Shown here one piece after another: positions 5,376 to 64,000 of a stretch of 64,000 nucleotides of DNA. Origin of the DNA: Bremia lactucae (taxonomy: Eukaryota > Oomycota > Peronosporomycetes > Peronosporales > Peronosporaceae); NCBI RefSeq assembly GCF_004359215.1, contig NC_090610.1, forward strand, positions 12,809,711 to 12,873,710, in the 5' to 3' direction. A program made the position numbers and the translations under genes. Position 1 is the stretch's first letter; each line of letters opens with the position of its first letter. The notes under the pieces were generated by a model. It searched no databases, was not told where the DNA came from, and saw only the letters and a program-made list of their open reading frames with translations.

Positions 5376-5379
5376 CGAA

Positions 5380-5870: not shown

Positions 5871-5875
5871 TGTAG

Positions 5876-8530: not shown

Positions 8531-8770
8531 CAACGTAAAATATAGGATGCGTTCGCATCATCCGTGGCAATTCTATTGTGTACGCATTGCCTCTGCGATG
8601 CAGTACACGGAATGGCCCAATGAACTTGGGTAGTAGTTTACTACTACCAAAATTAGTGACTACATGCTTCGGTAAGTGTACCGTATACAGTAGTTCTCGA
8701 TTTATAATATTTAATGAAAGTCCATTTGCACTTCCATGTTTGTCTGTGTTTCGTTTCTGCCGGTCCACTG
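7750..8770 (-). pseudogene. Pol C-terminus of B1: GPY/F domain and chromodomain remnant
   Basis: The minus strand 8768-8436 encodes KFIGPFRVLHRRGNAYTIEL and MRTHPIFYVGRLLPYHQY, the GPY/F module that follows the integrase core in chromoviruses. Downstream (about 8240-7950) the chromodomain seen intact in B2 is present but interrupted. 7941-7756 matches the B2 polyprotein tail. It overlaps the plus-strand aORF over about 0.8 kb. The chromodomain is thought to steer integration toward marked chromatin. Confidence 0.65.
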
Positions 8771-14487: not shown

Positions 14488-15425
14488 ATGCCACCTAAAA
14501 GGGGCAACGTTTGTGGGTCGTCCGCGAAGACACTCACTCAACCACGAGCTAAGCGCACGCGCCGCGTTAACAAGCCGGCAGCATCTAATGCCTTATTCGA
14601 AACGCCGACAGCTACTGCTGCTGTCGCGTTAACGAGGCTTAAGGATCCATCCAACCGTGAGGAAGCCGATCCGTCGCTCATTGTCGACTACAATGAGTCG
14701 ACACCGTTGCCCTCACCTTATAGTAGTGATGCGGACAACGATCTCCTGATGATGGATGATGGCGCATTATTGCCCATCCAAACTTCTCTCATGGCTCACA
14801 ACATGGAGACAGCAACATTTACTAATGCTGTCTCGTCGTCTGCGCTGGATAGCGCAGCGACCATTAATGAGAGCGCTGTCCATAAAGGCGCAGCCGCTTC
14901 TATGTTGGGTATAACCACAACGCCTTATGTTCAAACCATTATTTATAATGGTTCTGACATAGAGGATTCTGCGCCTAAAGCTCCGCCGACGACACGTGAA
15001 TATGCTCAGTCCGTGTCTTAAGCCAGTCGTTTAGAACGTGGCTATGTGACGGGTGGCATATCACTGATGCCTCCTCCAACTAAATGGCCTCGTTTAAACG
15101 GGCCATGAGCTTCGCTGTTAGAGCGCGCTCTTCAAGATGCACATAATTAATATTGCGGCTCTAAGTCATGGATGGCTCAGGGATAATCGCTTGGGCGTAT
15201 TTTCCCGTTCCCGGTCGTGTTGCATTCAAATGAAACGCTCGACCAATACGAGACGGGATTCACGCGCCGAATTCATCGGCATTCCAATGCGATGAAACAG
15301 CGGTCGCAGCAAATTAATTTCACCCGCTTGCGAGTGAAAGAAATTATGGGCAGTACTGTAACCCCTGTTTCTTCTCACAAACCTGCTTCGGCTAGTCCAT
15401 TTGAGACTAGCGAAGATGCCTCAGC
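14488..15425 (+). pseudogene. aORF of A2
   Basis: Starts ATG at 14488 (MPPKRGNVCGSSAKTL), the same start as the A3 aORF (MPPKRGK at 31742). A basic patch (RAKRTRRVNK) is followed by a Ser/Pro-rich acidic region (LIVDYNESTPLPSPYSSD) and then, after frameshifts, VLHSNETLDQYETGFTRR at 15217-15429. It stays open to 15021. The coiled-coil tail is cut off at about 15425, where minus-strand RNase H begins. It lies on the strand opposite to the adjacent A2 pol, as in other copies. Confidence 0.6.
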
Positions 15426-17146
15426 TTGAGGCTTTCAAAAGCCGGGACTGATAAGATGACACGGTTATCGCCGTCGTCATCCTTCTGCATGAGCGCGCTG
15501 CCGATTGCAAAATTACTTGCATCGCAGACGACGCTAAAGGGCTTATCCACGTCTGGCAATACCAAGACCCGATGCCTCTACAATAGATTGCTTCACTGGT
15601 GTGAACGCATCATCTGGTTTTTTAAACCAAACTCATTCCATAATAACGCGTACTTCCAGGCATTCTGCGTTTTTAAGGAGGACAGATAATGGTTTAGTTT
15701 GCTCAGCATAATTCTTGCTATGTTTGGGCAAGTAATTAGCGATCCCTAGGAATTGGCGCAAATCCTCTAAATTGTTCATTCCTTTGCCGATTTACCTTGT
15801 CTGGGTCTGCTCGTTCATCATGTGTACCTACGATGCAGCTTAGCACAGGTATGCATCTACGACGCCCTTCTGCAAGTTGACGTACAATTGGGCGTCCTCC
15901 AGAGTCTGCAACACAACGTCTAAATGACGCTTTTGCGACTCTATTTCGCTCAGCCCGTCCTCGGCCCAACTATGAACGAATTCGTCGTCAACATAATGAG
16001 GCGCGCAGGCACGGTGCTGACGCATCACGTGAGCCACCACTCAATTGAATGTCGCTGGTGCGTTTTCAACCCTTGGGGCATCACGCCCACTCTCAAAGCA
16101 TACCGCTTGGGGTGATCACTGCCGTTTTGACTTCATCGGACTATCTCATGAGAACCTGATAGTACCCATCCTTTAAATCCAACGCGGAAAAGATAATTGA
16201 CTTTCCATGGAGTTCAACAAGACATCTTTCCGCGGGATTGGCGTTTGTACCCGAATGGTGGCCGTGTTCAACTTATTGTAACCGTAAATACGCTCCATCC
16301 ACCTGTGGCTTAGCGCACACAGAAGATCGGACTGCAGTGAGGCGACTTGTTCTCACGTACATGTCCCGCCTTGGCTTCGTTGTCGAAGATCTCATCGATA
16401 TAATTGACTTATTCTTTCAACAACAGTCATTGCCTGGTCACACAATACTTGGTGCCAGGCAGGTTCTTAATCAATTTCGTGCTCGATGCCCCTATCGGCA
16501 GGTAAGCGGCTCGGCACTTCTTCTGTGAACACATCACGATATTACCACAGAATATCACAAAACGGGCTGTATTTCAAGGCATCCCAGCTTTGAGCAGCAA
16601 ATCTTTATTTTTGTCCGTTGTAGAACGCTCTCGTCCATTGTGGACGACGAGCAACAGTCCACGAAGTTCTCTTCTTAAACTGGTGTGACTACTTCGTGGA
16701 TCATTTTTATTTAAGTTCGGAGAGGAACAGATATCACGGCATCTCCGGGAGCTTACTATCTCCTCGGCAGATTTCAAGACGTTCTAGAGCACTTCAACAG
16801 ACAATGCCTCCGCTATTTCGTCTTTGACGGCCTCGAACACCTCGTTCGAAGGCCCACCCTCTTTAATAGGAACTGATCCAAAGGTCAGTCGTTTAGACGT
16901 GCATTTAATCGTCCTAATCTGTCGGGTACTCGCTCTTCGAGTCACCACGACCTTTGACTGGGAAGCGGGTGCCGTTGCTCTGCTGGCAAACGCACCCCTT
17001 CCAACCACACCAGGCTCTAGGCACTGTGCCGGTTTATGTGACGCTTGACTTCCTGTCAGCTCGACTTCTACTGCCACAGGCTCTCGACTCTGTCCAGGAC
17101 TATGAGAAACATGACTACTTGTCATCGTCCTTTTCACTACCCCAGT
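15426..17146 (-). pseudogene. Pol of A2: RNase H, RT and linker, inverted duplicate of A1
   Basis: Minus strand: linker 17146-16784 (TMTSSHVSHSPGQSREPV), spacer block 16777-16574, RT (palm at 16528-16150; HYVDDEFVHSW near 15990), then RNase H to 15426. It reads almost letter for letter like A1 1690-3390 on plus, including stops that cut the same frames. The block KSAEEIVSSRRCRDICSSPN occurs in both with one residue changed over 67. The protease and the integrase are absent; integrase text of family D follows on the opposite strand. Confidence 0.75.
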
Positions 17147-18230
17147 TGCCAGTGGCAATTGTCTCTGATCGGGATCACCGTTTCACGGGTAAATTCTGGA
17201 AATTAATTTTCCGAGTGCTTGGCACCAGATTGGATATGTCCACTGCGGACCATCCGCAGACCGATGGTCAAACTGAACGTGTCAATCGCGTCATTGAAGA
17301 CGTTTTACGCAGCCTGTGTGCTCAGAAACCAAAGCGCTGGAGCTCAATGCTCCCAGTAGTGGAGTTCGCGTCAAATAACGCTGTTCATGCCTCTACAGGC
17401 TATACTCTGTTCTATATTACCGTCCGGAAACAAGTAAGCGAGTTTCTCGCGACGCGATTTAGTGTCTTAAGACGTAAGGGATACGATGGCTGATAGCCAA
17501 GACAAACAAAAAGAACAAGCAGATGCCAAAGGCAGAAGCTGTATTAATTCTTATATGGTCGGAGACCGAGTTTTACTAAACGCTAAAATCTACCTACCAA
17601 CTTGGTTTCCGCGGTCTTCAAGACCAAATTGCGCCTGCGCTTTATTGGACCATTTACGGTCGTGGCCAAGAAGGACCTAGCTTATACGCTAAACCTTCCC
17701 AGCAAGCTGCGTACACACCCAGTGTTTTACGTTGGCTTGATTAAGCCATATCGGGACCCTTCCCACGTGGACTTGAAGGCGCTTGCGCCGAGACAGGCGG
17801 TCGTGCCGCAGATTGCTGCATCCTCACCAGGATGTCCAGCTGGCCCTTTTAACGACACTGCTGATGCTCCAGCGTCGAAAGACGGTCCCGAACCGCCTCA
17901 AAAGAGCTCTCAACCCGAGCAAGGACCTCACGAAGAAGTTGCACCTCGTGCCGTAGAGCATCAAATGCTTCCGCCGAAATTTCGGCCCCCTCCCACGCTG
18001 CTTGATGCGCGGGGGTACCTTCAGTTTCATGTGGAGAATTTTTAAAGCGAAGTCGTCGTGAGGGTCAATCCATTATCTGGTGAATTGGCTAGGGTATCCC
18101 TCTTCTGAAAACTCTTGGGAGTTCGAGGTACCTCTTCGGCAAAATTGCGCGTACGCCGTTGACGTTTTTGAGCGCCAAGCTCAGGGTCGACCCGCGTCAA
18201 ACGAAGCTTCCCACCACTAAACGTGGGATT
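17147..18230 (+). pseudogene. Integrase core, GPY/F domain and chromodomain of D1
   Basis: Plus strand 17147-17470 carries AIVSDRDHRFTGKFWKLIFR and DMSTADHPQTDGQTERVNR (the second Asp and the Glu of the DDE triad). A deletion of about 100 bp relative to D2/D3 follows HASTGYT. 17602-18045 carries RFIGPFTVVAKKDLAYTLNL and HPVFYVGLIKPYRDP (GPY/F), then a Pro/Gln-rich linker. 18020-18200 carries a chromodomain (LQFHVENF, then SSENSWEFEVPL). RT and the first part of the integrase are missing. It overlaps the minus-strand aORF from 17741 on. Confidence 0.75.
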
Positions 18231-19063
18231 AGGTGGATCCAAAGCCTCGGTGCGGCTTCAATCCTTGGTTGTACGGTCAACCAAAGTACTGAAATATCGG
18301 CTAAGCCTTTTTTTCGTTTTGTGGCATAAATGCCGAACGTAACTGGCCTTTGGCCTTAAGCTTAGCGAAGTTGAAGCGAAGCTTCCGTTCCAAACGAACA
18401 CCACCTCTATCCGCAGATATTCCAGATATTACGGAGTTTGCGGGCCCGGTGAACCCAGTTCTCAAATGAGACTTCGTTTCACTCCTTCTTTCGTTTGGAA
18501 ACAAAACCATCGGAATTCCCCTCATGGAGGTCACCGAAGCCCCACGGGCTTGATCACGTAAACGCGTCAGATGCTGGCTTCGCGTCATTACCTTCGGCGT
18601 AAGGTATTGCTCATGAAGACCGTCGCGGGCAGCGATCTCCTCCGGCGTCCTCGCCGGGTCACCAGAGATCCAGATGGCCAAGCTATGACCCGCTATCTCT
18701 TTGAGACGCTCGTCCTCACTAAGCGGAGTGAATCTATATTCACTATGAGCCTTAGCTTTCGCTATCTCGGCAGCTCGAAGACGAGCTCTTTCCTCTATGA
18801 GATTATCTGCTCTTGCTCTTCATCGAGCGGATTCGTAATGATGTTGGACTCAGGGTCCCGTGTCCTGCTCAATGCAGTTAAGACATCAGCGGCACCACGT
18901 TCTGGGAACGGATTCGGGGCTCGCCGACGTTCATCCGGAGGAGAAGGCGTGAGCGAACGCCGCCCTTTTCCTCCTCCTCTGATTGACAGCGACTTTCAAA
19001 GTCCACCATTCCCTTATCGTCGAGGAAGGTGCTCAGAGTCTGTGACTGACGCTTGATTGTCAT
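17741..19063 (-). pseudogene. aORF of D1, about 1.32 kb, near-complete
   Basis: Minus-strand frame from ATG 19063 (MTIKRQSQTLSTFLDDKGMV) to TAA 17741-17743. An acidic start (SEEEEK) is followed by a basic middle (TPKVMTRSQHLTRLRDQARG at 18600-18550) and GGKLRLTRVDPELGAQKRQR. The tail, opposite the Pro/Gln-rich pol linker, reads AAWEGAEISAEAFDALRHEV and on as heptads. A few frameshifts occur (near 18800 and 18490). The start is 112 bp from the LTR. The D2 copy has the same start, end and spacing. Confidence 0.65.
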
Positions 19064-31741: not shown

Positions 31742-33110
31742 TATGCCACCTAAGAGGGGCAAAAATGCTGGGTCATCTGCAAAGACACCCTCACAATCAC
31801 GCACGAAGCGTACGCGCCGCGTTATCACGCCACCGTCGCTCAGAGCCACATTTACAACGCCGAAATCTAATGCTCTGTGGCACTGTTAATTAGACTGAAT
31901 GATCCATCCCACTTTTACAGTGAGGATGTAAATTCGTCGCTCATTTCTGACTACAAATCGTCCACACCGCTGCCGTCACCTTATAGTAGTGATGACTGCA
32001 GCGAGCTAATGCGAAAGGATGATGGTGCTCTATGGCCCGTCAAACTTCACTCATTGCTCCTAACATGGAGACGCCCAACGTTGCGAAGGCCAACTTGCCT
32101 TACGTCAACAAAGCAACTGTCTCGACGTCTGCGCTAGCTAGCGCTGCCCATAATGGCGCAGCTGCTTCCCAGTTGGGTAGTTCCACAAAACCTGTCGTTC
32201 AGATCATCATTCCAATGGGTCTGACGCAGAAGATCCTGAGCGTAAAGCTCCACCGACAACACGTGAGCGTGTCCAGTCGATGTCTCAAGCCAGTCGCATT
32301 GTACGTGGCTATTTGACTGTTGGCATACCGCCGATGCCACCTCCATCCGAATGGCCTTATTTGGCTGGAACGAGTGCGTCGCTCTTAGAGCGCGCTGCTC
32401 TAGATGCACATAAAAATCATGGCATCTATAATTTTTGGAAGGCTCATGTCAAATCACTTCGTCGAGTTTCCCCGATCCCGGTTGTGTTGCATTCGAATGA
32501 ACCAACCGACCATTACATAGCGGCAATTATGCGCCGCTTTCAGCCACATTTCGATATGGCGAAACAACGGTCGCAGCAAATTAACTTTGCTCGCTTGCTT
32601 GTATAAAGAATCATGGGCGGTACTGCACCCGTGTTTCTACTCATCACGCCGCTCCTGCTAGTCCATAAGGAACCAGCGGAGCGACAAGTCCTTCTCATAG
32701 GCAGACACGAGGCCCGTTACGTCGACGCACAGCGCGTCAACCGGTTCCCAAGCGTCAAAGCCCTTTGGGTATCCTCTCTACTAGACAAGGATTTGATGTT
32801 TCTGCTGCATGGAGCGGTGGGCAACCAACCTTCCAACAAGGAAGTGTTGATTCCCAGCATTTCCATCAGTGCAGGTGGTGCCCGAAAGGAGCGGCGATTT
32901 GGCCCGCCTACTCGCGGCAGCCTATCCCGCATCCGTTCAGTCGCAGGCGCTGAACGCTGCTGAACGACGGATCGAGGATCTCGAAAGTCAAGTCTCACGA
33001 CAGACTTCGGATCTTCACGATGTCTGCGCGAAGGATCGTCAGGGTTACGAACGCCTTCAACTTCGGCTGGACCTTTTAAAAAAGTTGCTGCTGAAGGTCC
33101 GCGTCACGCG
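31742..33110 (+). pseudogene. aORF of A3
   Basis: Plus-strand frame opposite to the A3 pol. Starts ATG 31742 (MPPKRGKNAGSSAKT), a basic run (RTKRTRR), a Ser/Pro-rich acidic region (STPLPSPYSSDD), then 32280-32606: PPMPPPSEWPYLAGTSASLL, SPIPVVLHSNEPTDHYIAAI and RRFQPHFDMAKQRSQQINFA. The tail near 32950-33070 reads LNAAERRIEDLESQVSRQTS and YERLQLRLDLLK, a coiled coil. It runs head-on into the minus-strand GPY/F region at 33057. Several frameshifts interrupt it. Confidence 0.65.
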
Positions 33111-37309: not shown

Positions 37310-39440
37310 TTCTATAAGGATTTGATCGAATTTAAGGATGCGTTCCCTGGTTCGGTACCGTGTGAGTTGCCTAAGGATAAATGCACTCGACTCAAAATCT
37401 ACTTAATATCAGGCTCGAAATACTGTGTCATGAAGCAGTGGCCACTGCCATGTGGACAAGTATTAGTGATCGACAATTTCTTCGACGATCGCTTAACAGC
37501 GGGCCACGTGAGGAGTCAACCTTCTCACATAGCTCTTCGACCTTCTGTGTGCGTAAAGCACCAGGAGGGTGGCGAATTGCACATGCGAAAATAAAATTGA
37601 GCGCTGCAACTGTCCCGGCTCAAACACCGATACCGAGAAGGACATCATAATTGATGGTATGTAAAAAAGTACCATATTTTTGTCCATGGAACTGACAGAC
37701 GGAGCCTATCAATCCTCATGAGAGGACAAAATATTTCGTTCACAGCAATTAGTACCTCAAGAGGCATGCGTTGAGAATGGTTGGTTATACCACAGGGGCT
37801 TAGTAATGCCCCTGCAACAGTCAATTGAAGTGCATCCCCAATCTGTTAAGATCGGTGCGAGATTTCGCACCAAGTTATTTCTTCGTTCAAAGCAGATTAT
37901 GTGCGGAAAGTCGGACGTTGAAGTACATCGTTTTCACGTTCAAAAGGCTCTTACACTTATGAGTAAGCATAAGTTGTATGCAAATTTAAAGAAGTGTATA
38001 TCGCGTGCATCGTGGGTGAGCACGGTGTACGCCCTGATCCGGAAAAGATCAAGGCGATTGAAGACTAGCCTGTGCCAGTCGATGTAAACGGACTTCGAAT
38101 GCTCCACGGCTTATCTGCAATCGAAATACTATTTTGGGTGCATCGTGGGTGAGCACGGTGTACGCCCTGATCCGGAAAAGATCAAGGCGATTGAAGACTA
38201 GCCTGTGCCAGTCGATGTAAACGGACTTCGAATGCTCCTCGGCTTATCAGCGTTCTTACATGAGTACTCTCACAATTATGCCGAAATAACGAACATCTTT
38301 CTTATTTGTTGAAATATAAAGTCAAGTGGTCATGGCACGCTAATTCTCAGCGTTCCTTTGAGAGTTTCAAGCAAAGCTTGATGCAATCGACAATTGGCGA
38401 TTGCGGACCAAGACAGACCATTTCATGAGGTCTATGAGGCCAGCGATTTTGCAATCGGCTGTGGTTTAACGCAAAGACTCAGACTGCGTAGAGTGCGCCG
38501 CCTGCTATCATTAGCGTCAGCTTCAACCAGCTGAGCGCAATCATCCAGTGCATTACAAGGAAGTCCTTGCATATGCACTGGCTACGTTTTTGGGTTTGTC
38601 TCTTCAAAGATAGACCGTTCCGCTGGCTAAAGAAGAATTGGTCCACTTCGTGCAGGAGTCTATCGCTGACGCAGTGGGCCGACAGAACCGGGACTCTGAT
38701 AAAAATGGAACAGCAAACCTTTTTTGAAGTTAACAATCTAGTCCTGCTGTATACGGTAAATCTACTCAATCGGTACTGATGATTGTAAGCAGTTGCACAA
38801 ATTACTGCCCAAGTGAATCGGCCTGTTTCGTGTACAGCACAGCCAAGACAATGCGTACACGATCGAGCTTCCTCGTAGAATGCGAGCACATCCTACGCTT
38901 TACGTCGGACGTCTCCGCCCGTACTACCAGTACGAGGCTTCTTCCGGTCCAATTCACACCGGTACGGTCCCAGGCATCCACCAAAGACGGATGGTCTCGG
39001 GTTAGAGACTCAAAAATTTTAGCCAGACTTATCAATTTCTTTTTTAACGAGGAAGCTCGTGACAAACTGTCGCCAGCTCGTCGCGAGGGTTTGATGCACC
39101 CATTCTTTCGAAAATTGGTCGACCGCAACTTGCGCTCAAGATTCAATTCTTCGTGACAAACATTGTCGACCGTTGAAGCAAAATCATGACGACGGGAACT
39201 TTCATGATCATTTTCCTGCCGCAAGTACCGGAGGATGGATTTGACCATAATGTTAAGAAGTTGAGCCCGCGAAAAGTCGAATTCGATTTATCCTTCTCCG
39301 CATCAATTCATGTCTAGAGTGGCGGAAAGTGTTCTTGAACCGAGGGTCGAATAGGATCCGACGAGTTCTCTCGATCCCACCTAACGACAGATATTCCGGG
39401 TCTCGTCCAACAGTATGACGAGACCGATTCTTTGGCTTAC
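37310..39440 (+). pseudogene. Pol of element E (B-like): RT, RNase H, GPY/F and chromodomain pieces
   Basis: Plus strand: RT start 37322-37594 (IEFKDAFPGSVPCELPKDKC), broken RT to 38100, RNase H pieces 38380-38600, then GPY/F text near 38860-38950 (HPTLYVGRLRPYYQYEA in one frame) and a chromodomain ghost at 39310-39435 ending LVQQYDET. The integrase core is missing, so there is a large internal deletion. The text resembles B1/B2 more than A or D. Confidence 0.65.
38005..38270 (+). repeat. 133-bp tandem duplication inside the RT of E
   Basis: The block beginning GTGCATCGTGGGTGAGCACG at 38005 recurs at 38138. The two copies read the same for at least 100 bp and carry the same in-frame TAG (GAAGACTAG), so the duplication followed that mutation. 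Confidence 0.8.
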
Positions 39441-40430
39441 AGGGTTCATTGTTAAACGAGCGTTTTCCTCGCGCGCTCGTTAAAGGATTGTAAGTTTTAA
39501 ATCCCTTCACGCATCTCAGAAGAGATGTACGTCCCCCAACGAGAGTCATTAACGGAGTACGCCTCCCTAGGGACATGGAATGCACCCATAAAGCAGCAGG
39601 GACATGGATTTCCCAATGAGGGCAAGGTAAGCCTGCTCTCTAAAAAGCACCGACTACAGTCCACTTTTCAAACCGGTCACGAAAAGTAACCATTTTTTCA
39701 AGCCAAGCCTCGCGGCCTGATCGTTGCACATTCTTATTGAATGTTTCCCAAGCGTTAAAGAAGGAATTACATCCTTTGGACGCTTGCAAGTGTACCGCCG
39801 ATTTTAATTGAAGGCATCGATGAAAAATTCCGTTTCGTCCTTACCAGGATTGTGAAGCCTGGATGATTTGAATAATGGATTTTTGTAGCGCTCGTTGGTC
39901 ATACCAGACCCAAGAATTATGTTACCCGTAGAGGGCAACCAGGGTTTCTTTTCGGTAGCGAACCTCAACGTATAACGCTCTCTCTCCCGTTGGCTAATGT
40001 TAGCACTGGGGCGAACAAGTTTACCCGAAGGAATCTTTACGATCGCTTCGTTCCTGGTGATGAATTTGAGCATCACAAGTACCGTTCTTTTTATCGGAGT
40101 CATCCTACACATTTCCGCATCAAGAAAGTCCGGGAATTCGAACATCCTCGAGACCATTACTTGATCTATCTCGTCAGAACCCATGGTTGGCGCAATCGGC
40201 CCGGGGTGAGGCGGAGCCCGCTATGGTTGTTATTGAGTCAGACGATGACGCCGACTCATAAAGTACACCTCCAACCGAAGTTAAAGGCGAGTAATTTCTC
40301 GCAGTAGACGCCTAAGCATCTACTGACGTGTGTTTTATCACTAGCTGTTATCCTTAGTCGTGTAGCTGCCAGGTTTGCGGCCTTACAGGCAAGTGCACGG
40401 GCTTTGATACCATGCGCAAACAAATATTTG
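38800..40430 (-). pseudogene. aORF of element E
   Basis: The minus strand opposite to the E pol. 40184-39804 carries FATEKKPWLPSTGNIILGSG and FIDAFN, matching the B2 aORF (PEKKPWLLPERLVSSLSGEA ... FYLDAFIKH). 39248-38802 carries the degenerate tail (KIFESLTRDHPSLV), comparable with ESLVRDHRNLSGIL of B1. The middle (39585-39253) is low complexity. It lies between pol and a plus-strand 3' LTR, so the arrangement is the same as in the B copies but mirrored. Confidence 0.55.
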
Positions 40431-41286: not shown

Positions 41287-41769
41287 TGTAGCGGAGCTAC
41301 CTTGCTCCTAAAGTCAGATGAAGACTTTCAGACTCAGAGAGCCACTTAGTTCTATTGAACTAATGAGTTTAACAACTCAGGGAGTCGTACAAGCTATCAA
41401 AGCTTAAGGAATCCTAGTTCAAGGGATTCAGGGTTCGTAGAACCAAGTGGCAACTAGTGCTCAAGAGGATATACCTTAGAAAGGCTTCTATCTCTTACAG
41501 ATCAATGCGCAAGTCTTAGGAACGCACTTAACGCTTTAAGATCAAAAGGGGAACTGAACTTTATTTAATTATTTAAATATAAAATCTTACCCTAGCTAAT
41601 TAAAATAGATTTTGGCCGCCAGATTTATATCTGGCGGCGTCCACATTTATTACCCACAATAAATGGGATTTAAGTAACTAACTATTTTAAAATTAGATAA
41701 AAGGGTATTTTACCCATAAAGTAAATGTACCACAACAACGGTTCTCCAACCGATGTGTGCCCCATTACA
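41287..41769 (-). repeat. 3' LTR of the 12.2-kb D element
   Basis: 483 bp. On minus it runs TGTAATGGGG to GCTACA and is preceded by a purine tract (GAGAGGGTG type, plus 41770-41785). It carries the GCCGCCAGAT hairpin near 41612-41638. Confidence 0.9.
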
Positions 41770-41881
41770 CCCTCTCCCATCAGACTGTTGAAACCGAGTG
41801 ACAACATTCGCTTCTTTTCCTCTTTGAGGTTGGAACCTAAACAAGCTAACCGTTTGGTTGTGCTTTCCATTCCTTTGTCTA

Positions 41882-43201
41882 ATGACAATCAAGCGTGAGT
41901 CACAGACTCTGAGCACCTTCCTCGACGATGAGGGAATGGTGGACTTTGAAAGTCACCCTCAATCAGAGGAGGAGGAAAAAGAGCGGCGTTTGCTCACGCC
42001 TTCTCCTCCGGACGAACGTCGGCGAGCCCCGAATCCGTTCCCAGAACGTGGTGCCGCTGATGTCTTAACTGCATTGAGCAGGACACGGGACCCTGAGTCC
42101 AACATTATTACGAATCCACTCGATGAAGAATAATCCTCATAGAGGAAAGAGCTCGTCGTCGAGCTGCCGAAATAGCGAAAGCTAAGGCTCATAGTGAATA
42201 TAGATTCACTCCGCTTGGTGCGGACGAGCGTCTCAAAGAGATAGCGGGTCATAGCTTGGCCATCTGGATCTCTGGTGAACCGGCGAGGACGCCGGAGGAG
42301 ATCGCTACCCGCGACGCTCTTCATGAGCAATACCTTACGCCGAAGGTAATGACGCGAAGCCAGTATCTGACGCGTTTACGTGATCAAGCCCGTGGGGCTT
42401 CGGTGACCTCCATGAGGGAAATTCCGATCGTTTTGTTTCCAAACGAAACAACTGAATTCAAAGTCTCATTTGAGAAATGGGTTCACCGGGCCCGCAAACT
42501 CCGTAATATCTGGAATATCAGAGAGTCTGCGGATAGAGGTGATGTTCGTTTGGAACGGAAGCTTCGCTTCGACTTTGCTAAGCTTATGGCTAAAGGCCAG
42601 TTACGTTCGGCATTTATGCCACAAAACGAAGAAAGGCCTAGCCGATATTTCAGTGCTTCGTTTGACCGTACAACCAAGGATCGAAGGCGCACTGAGGCTT
42701 TAAATCCACCTAATCCCACGTTCAGTGGTGGGAAGCTTCGTTTGACGCGAGTTGACCCTGAGCTTGGCGCTCAAAAACGTCAACGGCGTACGGGCAATCT
42801 TGCCGAAGAGGTACCTCGAACTCCCAAGAGTTTTCAGAAGAGAGGTACCCTAGCCACTTCACCAGATACTGGTATTGACCCTCACGATGACTTCGCTTTA
42901 AAAGTTTCTCCACATGAAACTGAAGGTTCACCCGCGCACAAGCAGCGTGGGAGGGGGCCGAAATTTCGGCGGAAGCATTTGATGCATTACGGCACGAGGT
43001 GCAACTTCTTCGTGAGGTCCTTGCTCGGGTTGAGAGCTCTTTTGAGGCGGTTCGGGACCGTATTTCGACGCTGGAGCATTAGCAGCGTCGTTTAAAGGGC
43101 CAGCTGAACATCCTGGTGAGGATGCAGCAATTTGCGGCACGACCGCCTGTCTCGGCGCAAGCGCCTTCAAGTCCACGTGGGAAGGGTCCCGATATGGCTT
43201 A
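41882..43201 (+). pseudogene. aORF of D2, about 1.32 kb, best-preserved copy
   Basis: Plus strand, ATG 41882 (MTIKRESQTLSTFLDDEGMV) to TAA 43199-43201. Acidic N-terminus (SEEEEKERR), then LDEE; one frameshift near 42133 leads to ERARRRAAEIAKAKAHSEYR, EIAGHSLAIWISGEPARTPE, IPIVLFPNETTEFKVSFEKW and GGKLRLTRVDPELGAQKRQR. A single base missing near 42944 (present in D1 and D3) shifts to the tail AAWEGAEISAEAFDALRHEV ... RVESSFEAVRDRISTLEH, a coiled coil with one in-frame TAG. Start is 112 bp from the LTR, exactly as in D1. It overlaps antisense pol by about 0.48 kb. Confidence 0.7.
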
Positions 43202-46058
43202 AGCAAGCCAACGTAAAGCACTGGGTGTGTACGCAACTTGCTGGGAAGGTTTAGCGTAAGCTAGGCCCTTCTTGGCCACGATCGTAAATGGTCCAATAAA
43301 GCGCGGGCGCAACTTGGTCTTGAAGACCGCGGAAACCAAGTTGGTAGGTAGGTTTTTAGCGTTTAGTAAAACTCGGTCTCCGACCATATAAGAATAAATA
43401 CAGCTTCTGCCTTTGGCATCTGCTTGTTCGTTTTGTTTGTCTTCGCTATCAGCCATCGTATCCCTTACATGTCGTAAGACACTAAATCGCGTCGCGAGAA
43501 ACTCGCTTACTTGTTTTCGAACGGTAACAGGGCTGATATCAGCAAGCCTATCGGCCAATTATCCCTCGCCAAGCCCTGAACCACGCAGTGGTATCGTTTG
43601 TGGAACGGCGGGTGGGTAAGACCGTTTATGTAAAACGGAGTATAGCCTGTAGAGGCATGAACAGCGTTATTTAACGCAAATTCCACTACTGGGAGCATTG
43701 AGCTCCTGCGCTTTGGTGTCTGAGCACACACGCTGCGTAAAACGTCTTTAGTGACGCGATTGACACGTTCGGTTTGACCATCGGTCTGCGGATGGTCCGC
43801 AGTGGACATATCCAATCTGGTGCCAACCACTCGGAAAATTGATTTTCAGAATTTACCCGTGAAACGGGGATCCCGATCAGAGACAATTGTCACTGGCAAA
43901 CCATGTTGTCGAAACACGCGATCGATAAACAGCTTAGCTGTACCCTCTCACTATACCGGAGTCCTGGCTGTATCTTTCAGCAGCCCCAAAATAAAATCCA
44001 TACTAATGAACTCCCAGCATCCTATGGGGACGGGAAGACTCGTTAGTGGCGCAGCAGCATGTGCCGAGGGTTTAACCCGTTGGCACGTTTTGCATGTGCG
44101 AACATATGTGCTGACCCATTTAAAAAGTTAGGGCCACCATTAACTCTGGCTTATAGAGCCGTAGGTCTTTTCTCTACCGAGATGACCACCAAGGACAGTA
44201 TCGTGTCCCTCATTGAGGATCTGGTACTTCAAATCCTCATCATGAGGAACAACGACACGCGGAGGGTCCGCGATGTCTGTGCAATAAGAAAAAGCAACAG
44301 GTTGTTATCGATAGAAAATCGATGTAACCTTGCACGCAAACGTGCCGGCAATTTAATACCCTAATCCGAGTTCTTTAAAGCTCGTAGCAGAGCTACACAC
44401 TGTTCATTCTTGGCGTAAGCCGAACGGATTAATTCATGAATAGGTGACGAGATAGTCGTCAAATGAGAAACCTCATAATCCGGCCTGCGTGATAATGCAT
44501 CGGCCAAAGCATTTTGCTTGCCGGGTTTATACTTCACCTCGAAGTTGTATTCCACAAAAAAAGGATAGCCATCGGGCCATTCTCTGTGAGAGATGGGGCG
44601 GCTTGGTCGCCGTGCGTAACGACGCGTGATCTGTATAAATCACAAACGGCTTAGAGCCGAGCAGATGAACTCTGAATTTGACGAGACCATACTTCATAGC
44701 AAATAACTCTTTGTCATGAACTGGGTAGCTCTTTTAAGCACCTTTAAGCTGTCTAGACTCGAACGCAGTAACACGTTCATGCCCATCAACATCTGTTTGT
44801 AACAGAGCACTGCCAATGGCAAAAAAAAAATCTGATGCGTCACAGACGACACTGAAAGGCCAATTTGGGTTTGGCAGTGCCAGAATCGGGGCATGGATAA
44901 GACTATCCTTAACTGCTCGAAAAGCATTATTTTCGGTGCTAGTCCAGCACCATTCCGCATCCTTTTTAAGGTTATTAGATAATGGCGTAGCCATATCAGC
45001 GTAATTTTTGTTATATTTGTGTAAATAATTGGCGAGACCCAACCACTTACGCAAATACTGGTTTTTATCTAAATACTGGTTTTTAGGAACGGCCAATCTA
45101 CTATGGCTTTTACCTTAGCGGGATCCGCTCTAAGGCCTCGCTTTCCAATGAAGCATCCTAAAAAAGGACTTTCGTCTGCGCCAAAAATGCATTTAGATGC
45201 ATTGGCATACAATTTGTTTGTGCGCATGCACTCGAGCACTGCTCGCAAATGGTCTAAATGGTTTTCCATATCCGACCGACCCTGCTCCGCACGACTATGG
45301 ACAAAAATGTCATCGAAATAAGTCTGTGCATAACCTCGATGAGGGCGAAACAGTTGCGTCACTAGACGATTAAATGTTGCCGGGGCGTTGGAAAGCCCTT
45401 GTGGCATAACCAGCCACTCCCATAACATGCCGCTTGGGGTGCTAACCGCTGTAAGCGGAAATCACTAGGTCGCATGAGCAATTTGACTAAGCCAAGTGCA
45501 TTATTCATCGTACATCCCACCCAATTGCTCTAGACAATTTCCTTGCTAGGAATGGGGTTTTGTGCTCGATTAGGCTTTTTGACACAAAATGTCGGTGTCG
45601 AATGGAGAGATTTTCTCTCGCCAGCCTCGTGCTTAGCACGGAAGAATTGTCAATGTCGTCACATTGTTTATTTATAAGGGCCACTGTCGTGTAACACAGT
45701 ATTTAGTTCCACGAGCCAAGTCATTTTTTGATAAACACCTTTATCTGGAAGTAAGACAGATGGGGCTTTCGTAGACACCACATCTTGGAATTCCTTAACT
45801 AAGGATTAGATTGAGTACGTCGGATCTTTCAGGATCGATGATCCACTCCGCGCATTTAGTGTCCTCCAGGACGAATCCGTTTAGGAGCGATGATGAGTTT
45901 AACTCAATATTCGGTCGAATCACCACCACTTCAGACAATTCACCAGCCTTTAAGGCTCGGCAACAGACATTTCGTCTTGCTCTAAAAGACTGCTCTTGGT
46001 TGTCATCTCGGTAGAGAAAAGACCTACGGCTCCGTGAGCCAGATTTATTGGTGGCCAA
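42722..46058 (-). pseudogene. Pol of D2: RT, RNase H, integrase, GPY/F, chromodomain
   Basis: Minus strand: linker 46058-45795, RT 45428-45069 (LSNAPATFNRLVTQLF; TYFDDIFVHSRAEQG, intact YxDD-type box; KLYANASKCIFGADESPFLG), RNase H 45096-44361 (VVCDASDFFFAIGSALLQ; KQNALADALSRRP), integrase 44350-43507 (DMSTADHPQTDGQTERVNRV), GPY/F 43400-43200 (RFIGPFTIVAKKG; HPVLYVGLLKPYRDP), chromodomain 42931-42722 (QYQYLVKWLGYLSSENSWEF). The chromodomain and much of RNase H are readable; other parts are frameshifted. Confidence 0.8.
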
Positions 46059-46059
46059 G

Positions 46060-46880: not shown

Positions 46881-46902
46881 AAATTGCACCGGTGCCTGAT
46901 TA

Positions 46903-47891
46903 AACCATGGACGAGCGTCTCAAAGAGATCGCGGGTCACAGCTTGGCCAGCTGGACCTCCGGTGAAACGGCGAGAGCGCCAGAGGAGATCGCTACTCGCG
47001 ACGCTCTTCATGAGCAATACATTACGCCAAAGTTAATGAGCGAAGTCAGTATCTGACGCGATTTCGTGATCAAGCCCGTGGGGCTTCGGTGACCTCAATG
47101 AGGAAGATTCCGATCGTTTTGTTTCCAAACGAAACAAGGAGTGAAAACATAGTCTCATTTGAGAACTGAGTTCATCGAGCCCGCCACCTCCGTAATAGTT
47201 ACAATATCAGAGATTTTGCGGATGCGGCTGATGTTCGGTTGGAACGAAAGCTTCGCTTTGATTTCGCCAAGCTTAAGGCCAAAGTCCAGTTACGTTCGGC
47301 ATTTATGCCACAAAACGAAGAAAGGCCTAGCCGATATTTCAGTGCTTCGGTTGATCGTACAACCATGGATTCGAAGACGCACTGGGGCTATAGGTCCACC
47401 TAATCCTACGTCTAGTGGTGGAAAGCGTCGTTTGACGCGAGTTGACCCTAAGCCTGGAGCTCAAAAGTCAACGGCGCACGGGCAATCTTGCCAAAGAGGT
47501 ACCTGAAACTCCCAAGAGTTTTCAGAAGAGGAGTACCCTAGCCACTTCACCAGATGCTGGTGTTGGCCCTTAGACGACGACGTAGCTTTAAAGGCTTCTT
47601 CACGTAAAATCGAAGGTTCCCCCGCGCATCAAGCAGCGCGGGAGGGAACGAAATCTCGATGGAAGCATTTATGCTCTAAGGCACGAGAAGCAACTTCTTC
47701 GTGAGGTCCTTGCTCGGGTTGAGAGCTCTTTTGAGGTGGTTTGGGGCCGTCGTTTATCGCTGGAGCGTCAGCAGCCTCGTTTAAAGGACCAGCTGGACAT
47801 CCTGGTGAGGATACAGCAACCTGGAGCACGACCGCCTGTCACGGCGCAATCGCCTTCAAGTCCACGTGGGAAGGGTACCGATACGGTTTAA
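46903..47891 (+). pseudogene. aORF of D3, N-terminally truncated
   Basis: Plus strand, begins inside the protein at DERLKEIAGHSLASWTSGET and follows D2 to the stop TAA at 47889-47891. Markers: IRRRTGAIGPPNPTSSGGKR in shifted frames, then the coiled-coil tail near 47640-47790 with CATCAAGCAGCG as in D1. It is visibly more diverged from D2 (many substitutions) than the neighbouring integrase/RT copies are from each other. Confidence 0.6.
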
Positions 47892-50580
47892 GCAAGCAAA
47901 CGTAGAACACTGGGTGTGTGTGCAGCTTGCTAGGAAGGTTAAGCGTATAAGCTAGGTCCTTCTTGGCCACGACCGTAAATGGTCCAATAAAGCACAGGCG
48001 CAATTTGGTCTTAAAGACCGTGGAAACGAAGTTGGTAGGTAGATTTTAAGCGTTTAATAAAGCTCGGTCTCCGACCATATAAAGAATTAATACAGCTTCT
48101 GCCTTTGGTATCTGCTTGTTCTTTTTGTTTGCCTTGGCTATCAGTCATCGTATCCCTTACATGTTCTAAGACACTTATCGCGTCGCGAGAAACTCGCTTA
48201 CTTGTTTCCGAAGGTAATAGGGCTGATATTAGCAAGCCTATCGGCTAATTCTCCCCCACCAAGCCCTGAACCACGCAGTGGTACCGTTAATGGAACGCGT
48301 GGGTGAGTGAGACCGTTGACATAGAACGGAGTATAGCCTGTAGAGGCATGTAAAGCGTTATTGAACGCAAACTCCACCACTGGGAGCATGAAGCTCCAGC
48401 GCTTTGGTGTCTGAGCACACACGCTGCGTAAAACGTCTTTAGTGACGCGATTGACACGTTCGGTTTGACCATCGGTCTGCGGATGGTCCGCAGTGGACAT
48501 ATCCAATCTGGTGCCAACCACTCGGAAAATTGATTTTCAGAATTTACCCGTGAAACGGGGATCCCGATCAGAGACAATTGTCACTGGCAAACCATGTTGT
48601 CGAAACACGCGATCGATAAACAGCTTAGCTGTACCCTCTCACTATACCGGAGTCCTGGCTGTATCTTTCAGCAGCCCCAAAATAAAATCCATACTAATGA
48701 ACTCCCAGCATCCTATGGGGACGGGAAGACTCGTTAGTGGCGCAGCAGCATGTGCCGAGGGTTTAACCCGTTGGCACGTTTCGCATGTGCGAACATATGT
48801 GCTGACCCATTTAAAAAGTTAGGGCCACCATTAACTCTGGCTTATAGAGCCGTAGGTCTTTTCTCTACCGAGATGACCACCAAGGACAGTATCGTGTCCC
48901 TCATTGAGGATCTGGTACTTCAAATCCTCATCATGAGGAACAACGACACGCGGAGGGTCCGCGATGTCTGTGCAATAAAAAAAAGCAACAGGTTGTTATC
49001 GATAGAAAATCGATGTAACCTTGCACGCAAACGTGCCGGCAATTTAATACCCTAATCCGAGTTCTTTAAAGCTCGTAGCAGAGCTACACACTGTTCATTC
49101 TTGGCGTAAGCCGAACGGATTAATTCATGAATAGGTGACGAGATAGTCGTCAAATGAGAAACCTCATAATCCGGCCTGCGTGATAATGCATCGGCCAAAG
49201 CATTTTGCTTGCCGGGTTTATACTTCACCTCGAAGTTGTATTCCACAAAAAAAGGATAGCCATCGGGCCATTCTCTGTGAGAGATGGGGCGGCTTGGTCG
49301 CCGTGCGTAACGACGCGTGATCTGTATAAATCACAAACGGCTTAGAGCCGAGCAGATGAACTCTGAATTTGACGAGACCATACTTCATAGCAAATAACTC
49401 TTTGTCATGAACTGGGTAGCTCTTTTAAGCACCTTTAAGCTGTCTAGACTCGAACGCAGTAACACGTTCATGCCCATCAACATCTGTTTGTAACAGAGCA
49501 CTGCCAATGGCAAAAAAAAATCTGATGCGTCACAGACGACACTGAAAGGCCAATTTGGGTTTGGCAGTGCCAGAATCGGGGCATGGATAAGACTATCCTT
49601 AACTGCTCGAAAAGCATTATTTTCGGTGCTAGTCCAGCACCATTCCGCATCCTTTTTAAGGTTATTAGATAATGGCGTAGCCATATCAGCGTAATTTTTG
49701 TTATATTTGTGTAAATAATTGGCGAGACCCAACCACTTACGCAAATACTGGTTTTTATCTAAATACTGGTTTTTAGGAACGGCCAATCTACTATGGCTTT
49801 TACCTTAGCGGGATCCGCTCTAAGGCCTCGCTTTCCAATGAAGCATCCTAAAAAAGGACTTTCGTCTGCGCCAAAAATGCATTTAGATGCATTGGCATAC
49901 AATTTGTTTGTGCGCATGCACTCGAGCACTGCTCGCAAATGGTCTAAAGGGTTTTCCACATCCGACCGACCCTGCTCCGCACGACTATGGACAAAAATGT
50001 TATCGAAATAAGTCCGTGCATAACCTCGATGAGGGCGAAACAGTTGCGTCACTAGACGATTAAGTGTTGCCGGGGCGTTGGAAAGCCCTTGTGGCATAAC
50101 CAGCCACTACCATAACAAGCCGCTTGGGGTGCTAACCGCTGTAAGCGGGATATCACTAGCTCGCATGAGCAATTGGTACTAAACATCGACTAAGTCAAGT
50201 GCACTGTACATTGTACATCCCGCCATATTGCTCTAAAGAACATCCTTTCTAGGAATGGAGATTTGTGCTGGTATAGTAGCAGCATTAAGCTTATTAGAAG
50301 TATGTACAATGCGCCATTTACCATTTGGCTTTTTGACACAAAATGTCGGTGTCGAATGAGGAGATTTGCTCTCTCGTACCATTCCAGCCTCGTGCTTAGC
50401 AAGGAAGAAATCGTCAATGACGTCACACTGCTCCCTTGGTGAAGGCCATTGTGTTGAGACACACAGTATTTGGTTCCCGAAAACCAAGTCAATTTCATGA
50501 CGAACACCTCTATCCGGAGGTAAAACATATGGTGGATTGGTACACACCACATATTGGAATTCCTTAATCAAGAAATAAAA
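47629..50580 (-). pseudogene. Pol of D3: RT, RNase H, integrase, GPY/F
   Basis: Minus strand. RT N-terminus 50571-50190 (EIDLVFGNQILCVSTQ; ESKSPHSTPTFCVKKPNGKW), RT palm 50097-49759 where the catalytic box reads TYFDNIFVHSR: the second Asp is Asn, unlike D2. RNase H 49786-49052, integrase 48900-48200, GPY/F and linker 48235-47629. The part 48490-50170 is nearly identical to 43800-45480. Confidence 0.8.
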
Positions 50581-50599
50581 TGGATCCGTAGATCTTTAA

Positions 50600-51830: not shown

Positions 51831-51899
51831 GCCTGTACTCTCGCCCCGTGCCATTGAGCACCGAGCTAATTGGGGCTAGGTTCTGTTTATTCTCGCCTC

Positions 51900-52984: not shown

Positions 52985-53465
52985 TGTAGCGGAGCTACCT
53001 CGCTCCTAAAGTCAGAGGAAGACTTTCAGACTCAGAGAGTCACTTAGTTCTATTGAACTAATGGGTTTAGCAACTCAGGGAGTCGTACAAGCTATCAAAG
53101 CTTAAGGAATCCTAGTTCAAGGGATTCAGGGTTCGTAGAACCAAGTGGCAACTAGTGCTCAAGAGGATATACCTTAGAAAGGCTTCTATCTCTTACAGAT
53201 CAATGCGCAAGCCTTAGGAAGGCACTTAAAGCTTTAAGATCAGAAGGGACTGAACTTTATTTAATTATTTAAATCTAAAATCTTACCCTAGCTAATTAAA
53301 ATAGATTTTGGCCGCCAGATTTATATCTGGCGGCGACCACATTTATTAACCATAATAAATGGGATTTAAGTAACTAACTATTTTAAAATTAGAAAAAAGC
53401 GTATTTTACCCATAAAGTAAATGAACCACAACAACGGTTCTCCAACCGATGTGTGCCCCATTACA
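52985..53465 (-). repeat. 5' LTR of the 12.2-kb D element
   Basis: 481 bp, TGTAATGGGG to GCTACA on minus, followed by a primer-binding site and gag. Contains the same GCCGCCAGAT hairpin near 53312-53338 as the other two D LTRs. Confidence 0.9.
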
Positions 53466-60005: not shown

Positions 60006-61700
60006 ATGTTGATCGGTCAGAATCATCATTTTTAATTCTATCGCATAGTTAACAAGTCCAAGCGATGTGCGAATAGTGCGGCATCTTCAGCTGCGGTACA
60101 TGCAGCCGCGGGCGACGCATTATTGTCTCTTGCGGCAGACGTTTCGTCTGCCGTAGTACCATCTTCTCCTGCAACGCTAGGTGTTGCGGGTACACGTGGT
60201 GAGACACCACGTGAATGCGACCCCTCTTTGGAGGTCGACTTTGAATGCGAGTCGGACGAAATGGCCGACTCGGGGATAGCAGAACAGTCGCCTGATCATC
60301 GTCAGGCGGCTGACTATGAGACTTCGAATGACGGGGCTCGATCGGCTTGACGTGCTAATAGCATTTGCTAAAGCATGCTTGGTTACGACGACGAGGATGA
60401 TTCCTCATCGCCAGCGCCGTCTCCGGTGCCGTTATTCACACATAGTTCTGTGCGTGGTGAAACGATGGCTAAGCCATCGTAATAAAAGTTCTTGCAAAAC
60501 CCTTGCTTCAGTGGGTACCACTCAGGGGAGCGTAGACAGCAAAATGTCTTGTCTTGCCCCTGAGAAAAAGCCGTGGCTTTTGCCCGAACGCCTAGTCAGT
60601 AGCTTGTCTGGAGAGGCTACTCCTCACAATAAATATCCTTTATTTATTGCGACAAAGTTACATGGCCTTGATCCCAGCGCGAAGAACTTTCGCGCTGAGA
60701 AATTTTATCTCGATGCTTTTATTAAGCATCGATGGTCTTAGTGGCAACAACAAGCGACATTAAAGCTCGTTGATGCAAGCCTGGAACGCGTTTATTCGCA
60801 ATGTCAACGACATTGGACGCGAAGCCTGGCCTTAAAGACTTAACACGATTCGCGTTAAATTTGAACAACAAACTCCAACCAGTGCAAGATTTAAACTGCA
60901 TCGGTTGTCTCGTGAGGCAGGACTTCAAGCCTCACTAGGGGTGATCCCTGTCCGTGTTGTGTCGACAACACGAAACGGGTGAAAGGGGATTTTATTCCAT
61001 TTCTTCGCCCTGGGGAAGGGCTCGCATCGAGATGCGTGACGCGATTGACGTTTTTCAATCGATTTACAGGCGCCAGGGGCGCGTGTTCTTAGATGGACCT
61101 TCTGATCCATCGGATGGGTCTCGTCATACTGACGGACGAGGCCCTCAACGTCAGCAATCAGCTGGAAACGAGGCTCCCAGCTGTCATGTGAAGGTGGATA
61201 ACCACGCCAGCGAACAAGATAACTCGTTCGCTGCCCCTTCACATCATGGTGGTTTACGATACGTTCAACAAGAAAATGTTGACCACCGTGGGAATCCACC
61301 AATGGTTGTGGTGGGGGAGGGAAAATTAGATCCGACCTATGTGTCGGACTTAGAGTTGAAGATCGACAAACTCGACCACTACCTCCATGTATTGGAGGAG
61401 GGTCTTGATCACGAGCGTGGTAAGCGTCACTCGTTGGAACAGACGGTGCAGGCTCACCGTATGGAACGGTTGATAGACCGTTCGAAGCGTGCGTACTCAA
61501 TGTTGGAGTACGAAGGAAGTATCACGCTATCGTTATGAGCTGTCGTCAGCTTATCGCGGTTTCGAGGATCTTTGGACCCGACATGAGAATCTCCAGATCA
61601 GCATGAAAATCTAGTTCGTGACCACAAGAATCTTTTAGGGGTTCTTGAAAAGGGTGGTCAGATCCGTCCTTGGAAGAAACCACGTACTGATGGTACGGGC
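60006..61700 (+). pseudogene. aORF of B2
   Basis: Plus strand, opposite to the B2 pol; first ATG 60006, 79 bp from the LTR. 60123-60350: LAADVSSAVVPSSPATLGVA and ECESDEMADSG (acidic). Frameshift to 60560-60741: PEKKPWLLPERLVSSLSGEA, then FRAEKFYLDAFIKHRWS. 60954-61538: DGPSDPSDGSRHTDGRGPQR, then the coiled coil SDLELKIDKLDHYLHVLEEG and LEQTVQAHRMERLIDRSKRA, continuing in other frames to about 61700 (RHENL, LLGVLEKGG). B1 has the same blocks with different lesions. 60925-61700 is antisense to the chromodomain and GPY/F coding region. Confidence 0.65.
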
Positions 61701-64000
61701 GGAGCCAACCAACGTAAAACATAGGATGCGTTCGCATCCTACGTGGCAATTCTATTGTGTACGCATTGCCTCTGCGATGCAGCACACAGAATAGCCCAAT
61801 GAACTTGGGTGTAGTTTACTGCTACCCACATTAGTGACTACACGCTTAGCTTATTTTACCGTAGAGAGTAGTACTAGGTCATTAATTTTTAAAGAAAGAT
61901 CATTTGCTCTTCCATGTTTGTCTGCGCCCCGTTTCTCACGGTCCACTGCGTCAACAATGGAATCTCTTACGAAACATATTGCTGAATCTCGAGCCAGCAG
62001 AAAATCCTCTGCCGACTCGTTTGTTTTGTCTTTTCCAGTGCGCACAAAGCGCACTGGAAAATAGATCTTTCTCATTTTCGATGTCGATTGCATCGATTCG
62101 TGATGAGCATGAGCCAAAATTGGTTTTGCTCGTGCGAATGCCCCCCCCCCTTAAACAAGAGGATTCCTCTAATTGAGTGAGTATGCGTGAATGGCGTAAC
62201 CATTCACGAAGAACGTTGTATGCGTTGTAGACGCATGCACCTAATTATTGTAGCGAATTCGACCATCGGTAAAAACTCGATCAATTCGGATACGATTGGA
62301 CGTAATCTCGAAGTAACTCTTTGAGGACGCGTTTGACGCACCATCTGTCTCCGGATGATCAGAAGTTGAATTAGTCAGCTGTTTTCCGAGAGAAGGAAAC
62401 ACGGACTGCCAAAACTGCGCCGTGAACCGTGGATCTCTATCGGAGACCAGTTCACGGGGTAAAGCGTGGAGTCTGAATACCGTGTCGATAAAGACACGGG
62501 CACAGCCCGGACCCTTGATCGACTCTGGTGCTGCAGCAAGATGTACCATTTGCTGAATCTATCTACAAAAACACGGATTCCATTGTTTTCGTGATCGTCT
62601 TCGGGAAGTCCGAAAACGAAGTCCATAGAGACTGCCAACATTCTACCAAAAGTTATAGAGATTGGAGAGGTGCACGGGATGAAGGGCTAGGCTTCACCCG
62701 TTGACATACCTCGGAAGCACGAATGTACTTGCACACGAACTGATACTGGCGGGGCCAGTAAGAGTCGCGACTTACTGTGAGATAAGTTTTGCCACGTCTA
62801 CGATGCGCACTTGTTGGTGCATCATGACACTCATACATGATGTGCAAGCGCAAATCATTGTGACTTGGGACGACGATACGTGATTGTATCGATCTAATGA
62901 CGATCGATACAAGGCCGCTAAATCATACGAAAAAAATATTTAATGGATTCGTCACTTAATCCACTAAGCGCAGAAGGTCTTTATCTTTGTGTAGGCTTTC
63001 TTTATGTCATCAAACAAAGCTGATGACGGAACACTTGTATGAGTGTTGCACAAGGGATTTTTTTTTACTGTTGGAGTGCCCAGCCGGCTCAAAGTCGGGT
63101 CGGCGTGATATCGCATCAGCGACGACTTTAAGCCGTCCTGGTTTATACTCCAGGAAGAAATTATACCCGCGAAGAAGGATAGCCACCTCGGCTTTCTTCG
63201 CGAGAGGTGTGGGCTGTTTGCGGCCGTGCGAAATGACGCATGATCCGTATATACGATGAACGGTCTATCTCCGAGGAGGTAGACCCTAAATTAGCCAGTG
63301 CGTATTTCATGGCAAGGCGTTCCTTCCCATGCACTAGGTATTTGCGTCCAGCTGTTTGCAGCTGACGTGACTGGTAACAGAAGACGCGCTCCACGCTGTC
63401 TGTATCGTATTGCGTTTGCGCACAGCCGATAGCGGTATCGCTGGCGTCAGAGACCACATGGAATGGTCTATCTTGATCTGCAATCGCCAAGATGGGCGAT
63501 TGCATCAAGCTTTGCTTGATACCTTTCAATGGGACGCTGACAATTAGCGTTCCATAACCAATTCCCTTTTTTTAAAGAGACGAGAGAGATGAACTGTCAT
63601 CTCGGCATAGTTGCGAGAGTACTTGTGCAAGTACGCCGATAAACCAAGGGACGTTATAAGTCCTTGACATCGACTGGATCTGGCCAGTCGGTGATTGCCT
63701 TGATCTTTTCGGGATCAGGGCGCACGCCGTGTTTACCGACGATGCACCCAAGAAGTGGTATTTCGCTTGCAGCGAATATACACTTCTTGAGATTTGCATA
63801 CAACTTATGCTTTCGCATAAGTGTAAGAAGCTGAAGTACGTGAGTTTTATGAGCTTCCACGTCCATCTTTCCGTCCCTAAACCGGCTGTGGACGATTACA
63901 TCGTCAAAATAACTCGGTGCGAATTTTTCGCACCGGTCTCAATAGATTCGTTACGCATCTGTTGAATGTTGCAGGGGCGTTACAAAGCCCCTGAGGCACC
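60925..64000 (-). pseudogene. Pol of B2: RT, RNase H, integrase, GPY/F, chromodomain (runs off the window)
   Basis: Minus strand: RT at 63970-63654 (KHKLYANLKKCIFAASEIPL; IVGKHGVRPDPEKIKAITDW), RNase H 63529-63161 (VVSDASDTAIGCAQTQYD), integrase zinc region 62853-62653 (ASEVCQRVKPSPSSRAPL), core 62641-62241, GPY/F 61785-61546 (MRTHPMFYVGWLRPYHQY), then one open frame 61500-60925 with the chromodomain FLVERIVNHHDVKGQRTSYL, VRWRGYPPSHDSWEP. The chromodomain frame is intact here. The rest is frameshifted. Gag and the 5' LTR lie beyond 64000. Confidence 0.8.

Follow-up and report, generated by a model that had tools for sequence, protein, structure and literature searches.

Is a long open frame lying opposite the end of pol in an oomycete retroelement a gene in its own right, or does it merely accompany pol? 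The question arises from a 64,000-nucleotide stretch of Bremia lactucae DNA (the window), in which the original prediction, made from sequence alone, described such an antisense frame (aORF) in nine retroelement copies of families A, B, D and E. It set these frames beside the antisense extra ORFs known in some plant Gypsy lineages, a precedent borne out by the literature: in maize Grande (gene23), rice RIRE2 and Silene Retand, aORFs with the TRP28 domain (PF04195) lie antisense in the interval between pol and the 3' LTR and are kept in most copies (PMC7264820, PMC11963269). The Grande protein is nuclear and its gene has a promoter of its own (PMC7264820, PMC11963269); the function of the plant antisense gene is called unknown (PMC7264820). 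HBZ of HTLV-1 is an antisense gene transcribed from the 3' LTR, with an N-terminal activation domain and a C-terminal bZIP (PMC10186651). Among oomycetes, the Ty3/Gypsy element Chronos of Peronosporales and Pythiales has a chromodomain behind the integrase and, next to the Gypsy RNase H, an added one of archaeal/plant type (aRNH); the word "antisense" is absent from the main text of that paper (PMC5348765). As the original prediction supposed for oomycete chromoviruses, we found no such gene described in oomycetes among the matches listed from the open full-text literature, outside which most subscription papers lie.

Layout of the focal copy and its relatives

The focal stretch covers the 3' portion of D3, a decayed Ty3/Gypsy copy on the minus strand (Table 1). 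Its aORF starts, exactly where predicted, with an ATG on the inner side of the LTR boundary (41769), from which 112 nt separate it; the predicted end at 43201 lies nearer 43251, and the aORF is split into four pieces rather than being one frame because the D3 copy is broken. In a DNA comparison of the LTR pair, positions 41286-41769 and 52984-53465 are 96.3% identical. D3 and its neighbour D2 are arranged head to tail (93% identical, 42222-45566 vs 46909-50269), spanning 41286-53465, and an inverted D-like segment within this span (46296-46862) is 79% identical to 43358-43944.

Table 1. Features of the window (positions counted from its first nucleotide; percentages are identities)
Feature	Position	Strand	Basis or remark
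D3 (focal) aORF	41882..43251	+	antisense to pol; tblastn with the L027 aORF
D3 aORF pieces	41882-42130, 42127-42933 (open to 43092), 42954-43190, 43165-43251	+	different frames; 95, 89, 75 and 97% to the L027 aORF, respectively (tblastn)
D3 integrase C-terminus and linker	42901..43354	-	antisense to aORF tail; D_INc 84.9% and 90.9%
D3 integrase core fragment	43510..43845	-	open frame, recognised by eye
D3 reverse transcriptase fragment	45072..45461	-	Pfam RVT_1 6.2e-17
D3 3' LTR	41287..41769	-	sense TGTAAT...GCTACA; ends read from sequence
Matching D LTR (5' LTR of neighbouring D2 copy)	52985..53465	-	
Probable polypurine tract adjoining D3 3' LTR	41770..41780	-	assigned by recognition
A1 aORF remains	5332..6032	-	pol on +; tblastn, DNA similarity
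A2 aORF	14488..15426	+	77% to L049
A3 aORF	31743..33051	+	tblastn
B1 aORF	7235..8630	+	59-66% to L071
B2 aORF	60436..61809	+	51-70% to L071; overlaps pol chromodomain and linker
B2 pol chromodomain frame	60928..61521	-	Pfam Chromo 3.9e-14; antisense to B2 aORF
D1 aORF	17692..19063	-	pol on +; tblastn
D2 aORF	46910..47940	+	start missing; tblastn
E aORF remains	38808..40220	-	related to B

When longer relatives were placed onto the window by tblastn, the aORF was recovered in all nine named copies (9/9), with the same layout whether it lies on the plus strand (A2, A3, B1, B2, D2, D3) or the minus strand (A1, D1, E). Single-frame relatives occur in the same genome: the D-family locus L027 encodes 456 aa from the same ATG, the A-family locus L049 encodes 493 aa in one frame, and the B-family locus L071 holds a 472-aa frame. 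Genome-wide, at least 127 matches to a D aORF piece were found, and at least 150 each for two A pieces, one B piece and one E piece. The E core (39807-40016), of about 70 residues, recurs at 46-71% identity in 149 other places among the matches listed, most of which show little similarity outside it; this core could act as a profile to find the gene elsewhere. Just upstream of the A2 aORF start, that same open frame gives a sub-threshold match to Retrotrans_gag (14371-14541, E 0.18), perhaps a remnant of another element's gag. Between the elements (22420-30032 and 55666-58811) lie likely host genes, judged by eye: ankyrin-repeat proteins, RING proteins, a guanylate kinase, a methyltransferase and a phosphatase-like frame.

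The aORF faces pol, as predicted: it is antisense to gag-pol and lies between pol and the 3' LTR (the LTR being read for D). In the window, pol occupies the other strand in eight of the nine copies (A2 through DNA similarity only), the exception being A1, where the integrase C-terminal segment (4791-5080, 4812-5245) has the reverse orientation to the remainder of pol. Among genomic loci, pol C-terminal pieces stand opposite the aORF at 30/30 D, 28/40 A and 10/10 B loci; 10 of the 12 A loci without such a piece hold at least 745 N, two (L034 and L061) contain no N, and locus L018 has an extra small pol piece on the same strand. Five loci were chosen by their reverse transcriptase (98% identical RT) instead of by the aORF. 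Four of them carry the D aORF and the LTR at the expected place, all four with frame breaks, and the fifth (L081) has only a diverged LTR piece and no aORF. These five therefore show neither an intact young element devoid of the frame, which the original prediction had named as evidence against it, nor an element intact throughout. Fourteen D-like RT copies share an identical bit score (282.9, 98% at the amino acid level), and the 3' parts of the four examined among them (L082-L085) differ by ~7-11% in DNA; gene conversion or uneven constraint may account for this disparity.

Like Chronos, the Bremia elements are Ty3/Gypsy elements with a chromodomain behind the integrase: in B, Pfam places the chromodomain C-terminal to the integrase (Chromo 3.9e-14 and 4.4e-14), and A and D loci match the B chromodomain frame. 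Unlike Chronos, in D the end of RNase H (recognised by eye) is followed within ~100 residues by the integrase H2C2 motif, leaving no room for an added RNase H; in A and B, where frames are broken, this feature was judged by eye only.

Selection on the antisense reading frame

The aORF proves to be a genuine protein gene: its frame is under selection in families A and D, with weaker evidence in B and E. Copies were gathered by protein similarity, and variable sites were divided into changes shared by several copies and changes private to few; rows that were ≥98.5% identical or too short were left out (5/30 D rows for the synonymous counts; 3/30 D rows and 1/40 A rows for the phase counts). Over codons 1-310 of D, all variable sites together give 160/610 synonymous, as expected under neutrality (0.26 at kappa 2). 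Among shared changes, those whose minor allele occurs in ≥4 of 25 copies are synonymous at 24/43 sites, against 136/567 for the rest (Fisher p 2e-5), and those in ≥5 of 25 copies at 20/31. The bulk of the differences are confined to few copies and presumably date from after insertion. The original prediction regarded a dN/dS near 1 across many copies as decisive against the frame; the all-site D count does look neutral, but the shared changes reveal selection, and such a pooled test would misfire here. Codons 311-457 of D gave no clear sign of selection (4/16 synonymous at ≥4 copies, 45/120 at ≥2).

Family A behaves similarly along much of its length. Codons 1-120 are synonymous at 91/341 variable sites overall, with 25/49 for changes shared by ≥5 of 39 copies vs 66/292 for the rest (p 9e-5), and codons 121-250 at 82/277 overall, with 19/38 vs 63/239 at the same cut (p 0.007). 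The synonymous excess is absent from codons 251-360 (7/29 at ≥5 copies), while the coil and tail (codons 361-494) show 118/400 synonymous variable sites and 10/17 at ≥8 copies. Codon phase agrees: in the pol-free part, variants found in ≥5 copies fall on aORF positions 1/2/3 as 16/20/46 in A and 5/7/23 in D (27 copies), and noncoding flanks are phase-free (109/109/103 in A, 152/161/167 in D). As a positive control, 16/22 variants upstream of the D integrase core and 16/20 inside it fall on pol's own third position; unsplit, this control looked mixed (19/21/5) because the pol of the reference copy changes frame, and a third segment left after the split was too small (0/1/1).

No codon place of the aORF frame in the pol-free part has a stop in at least half of the copies; for each of the five remaining frames, the number of such places is 7-30 among 25 D copies and 11-22 among 39 A copies. 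One reservation from the six-frame control is a sense-strand frame that has its wobble position in common with the aORF and is synonymous at 21/43 and 40/87 sites, compared with 24/43 and 44/87 for the aORF. Selection on that sense-strand frame was ruled out by stops in at least half of the copies at 9 (D) and 13 (A) places, the aORF having none. The aORF-only part of B shows a modest phase signal (4/8/15, p 0.03), and the stretch ahead of its main frame is flat (45/38/35). For the 70-codon E core, pN is below pS in 10/10 pairs with the window copy and in 50/55 of all pairs (mean pN/pS 0.52), values in which pN is biased downward because the copies were found by protein similarity.

Dual coding with pol

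The first part of the aORF occupies the interval separating pol from the 3' LTR, and the second part continues across the DNA that encodes, on the pol strand, the chromodomain and the integrase-chromodomain linker. In B, the aORF shares ~700 bp with the open integrase end, the linker and the chromodomain, and both strands are open simultaneously over 633-795 nt at five loci. These B loci were chosen for long frames (10 of at least 150 fetched, five used for randomisation). When synonymous codons of pol were permuted, either none or one of 5000 trials per locus left the aORF frame free of stops, and the average number of stops was 7.4-9.8; when synonymous codons were drawn uniformly, the frame stayed open in 1-4 of 5000 per locus across the five loci.

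Variation in the overlap identifies the protein that prevails in each segment. In the linker, it tracks the antisense coiled coil and not pol, clearly in B, where variants shared by ≥4 of 12 copies fall on aORF positions 1/2/3 as 4/3/14 (p 0.005, one-sided 0.0018), and weakly in A (11/9/20, p 0.076, one-sided 0.021). The favoured aORF third position sits opposite the pol second position in this coil/linker overlap. Within the chromodomain, pol dominates in A (4/10/1), and in B, at a looser cut (≥2 copies), position 1 of both frames is spared (5/16/17); the overlapping part of D gave flat, uninformative counts. The register, hand-derived from coordinates, is identical in A (L049), B (L072) and D (L027), with pol codon position 3 opposite aORF position 2. 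Three families would agree in register by chance in 1 of 9 cases, and this agreement was recognised only after the fact. HBZ is not known to overlap pol. The Bremia aORF does so over much of its length, and the word "overlap" is absent from the main text of the paper on plant aORFs (PMC11963269).

Predicted product and relation to known antisense genes

A shared protein plan, with an acidic or Ser/Pro-rich start, a basic middle and a coiled-coil tail, had been proposed for the aORF products. By quarters of each aORF, D has an acidic start and a basic third quarter and B a basic second quarter, in line with the proposal, but Ser and Pro are abundant along the whole of A, and B has its acidic stretch in another frame, upstream of the main one (L071). 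Heptad-repeat tails, judged by a home-made score against 200 shuffles, are present in four of the five sequences tested: the score was reached by 3/200 shuffles for A (L049) and by 0/200 for B (L071, L072) and D (L027). The test fails for a second D sequence (L030, 74/200 shuffles as good), whose frame stops early in the coil; most D copies among those listed, the window copies included, read another frame there. AlphaFold2 models the B2 tail as one helix (residues 130-196) with pLDDT >90 in mid-helix (model mean 59), and its model of the focal copy was uninformative (pLDDT 43.5).

Pfam returned no aORF match above the cut-off, only weak coiled-coil ones for B, and the best PDB match had an E-value of 0.85; a DNA-binding domain is therefore not established. 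NLS-like patterns were not above shuffles, Rfam yielded nothing informative, and neither did IMG/VR searched with the A and D aORF alignments. The motif said to link A and D is genuine, although the similarity is weak (hhalign E 0.0035, probability 9%, 60 columns, 33% identity). The B and E aORFs align over much of their length, and no alignment was obtained for A-B or D-B. A single demonstrable family for A, B, D and E was rejected in favour of two groups, B with E (clear) and A with D (weak), which corrects the original prediction. Its central claim, that several retroelement families share a conserved gene on the strand facing pol, withstood the separation of shared from private changes, the six-frame stop count, the randomisation of pol codons and the survey of copies.

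Like the aORFs of Grande and Retand, the Bremia aORF is antisense and lies between pol and the 3' LTR; unlike Retand, which belongs to a non-chromovirus lineage, the Bremia elements bear chromodomains, and TRP28 (PF04195) was not found in their aORFs with Pfam at E up to 1 or up to 5. The plan of the protein resembles that of HTLV-1 HBZ, which is grouped with APH-2/3/4; host and element type differ from those of this group, no sequence relation was found, and bZIP was not detected by Pfam or PDB comparisons despite the heptads. By placement and plan, the aORF would work in the manner of both systems; by the tests made, it belongs to neither the TRP28 nor the bZIP family. We propose, with a probability of about 55%, that chromodomain-bearing Ty3/Gypsy elements of this genome carry a further gene antisense to gag-pol, which would encode an accessory nuclear regulator built like HBZ and placed like the Grande and Retand aORFs. 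Its transcript would begin in or beside the 3' LTR and be translated into a coiled-coil protein, predicted to dimerise through its coil; this protein may then enter the nucleus and tune the element, in the way that HBZ regulates HTLV-1 and that has been proposed for Grande and Retand.

Among the alternatives, it is exceedingly improbable that the antisense frame is a by-product of pol composition or codon use, without a selected product. Codon bias can keep antisense frames open, the codon-complementary frame of the B overlap contains only 1-7 stops, and all variable sites pooled look neutral; against this, the pol-free first part alone lacks fixed stops and has a third-position excess, pol codon permutation introduces several stops on average into the aORF frame, and the aORF lies outside the codon-complementary register. 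Codon randomisation, codon phase and the fixed-stop count together led us to reject a chance frame. We also consider it very unlikely that an independent gene or element, such as a recently captured host gene, is nested next to pol and faces the other way. No relatives were found in Pfam, PDB or IMG/VR, as would suit such a capture, yet the aORF occupies one position in all four families, a single register applies where it overlaps pol (A, B and D), and in D it lies inside the LTR boundary.

Two further readings accept a functional product. This could be an antisense RNA pairing with the element's genomic RNA, for self-limitation or small-RNA silencing: convergent overlap would yield double-stranded RNA, a possibility raised for plant elements (PMC7264820), and Hbz RNA also has noncoding roles (PMC10186651). 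Selection acts, however, on codon positions of the protein frame; RNA may be an added role and not the reason for the frame, and we regard this account as unlikely. Slightly less doubtful, though still improbable, is an accessory protein with a structural or particle-associated role, resembling a capsid, chaperone or envelope protein, in place of a nuclear regulator. Coiled coils serve assembly too, and the lack of a DNA-binding domain match in Pfam and PDB and of NLS enrichment would fit such a role, whereas the comparable antisense proteins Grande GENE23 and HBZ are nuclear.

Returning to the accessory regulator, a tentative extension, to which we give rather less than even odds, is that the antisense gene was fixed before several chromodomain Gypsy families of oomycetes diverged from their common ancestor. 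It would since have been double-coded with pol in one register, leaving the linker shaped mainly by the antisense coil, and its HBZ-like product would add another independent case to those known from plants and retroviruses. The long overlap with pol is itself informative, a correction to the original prediction, and makes pol and aORF a natural test case for dual coding, in which variation tells which protein prevails per segment, with pol ahead in the chromodomain of A and the antisense coil in the linker of B. Annotating pol alone, or pooling dN/dS across copies, overlooks such genes. Antisense accessory genes are already known from plant Gypsy elements and from HTLV, in the latter with a known function; finding the gene in the same position in another lineage, to all appearances unrelated, would suggest that retroelements have repeatedly used the antisense slot beside the 3' LTR.
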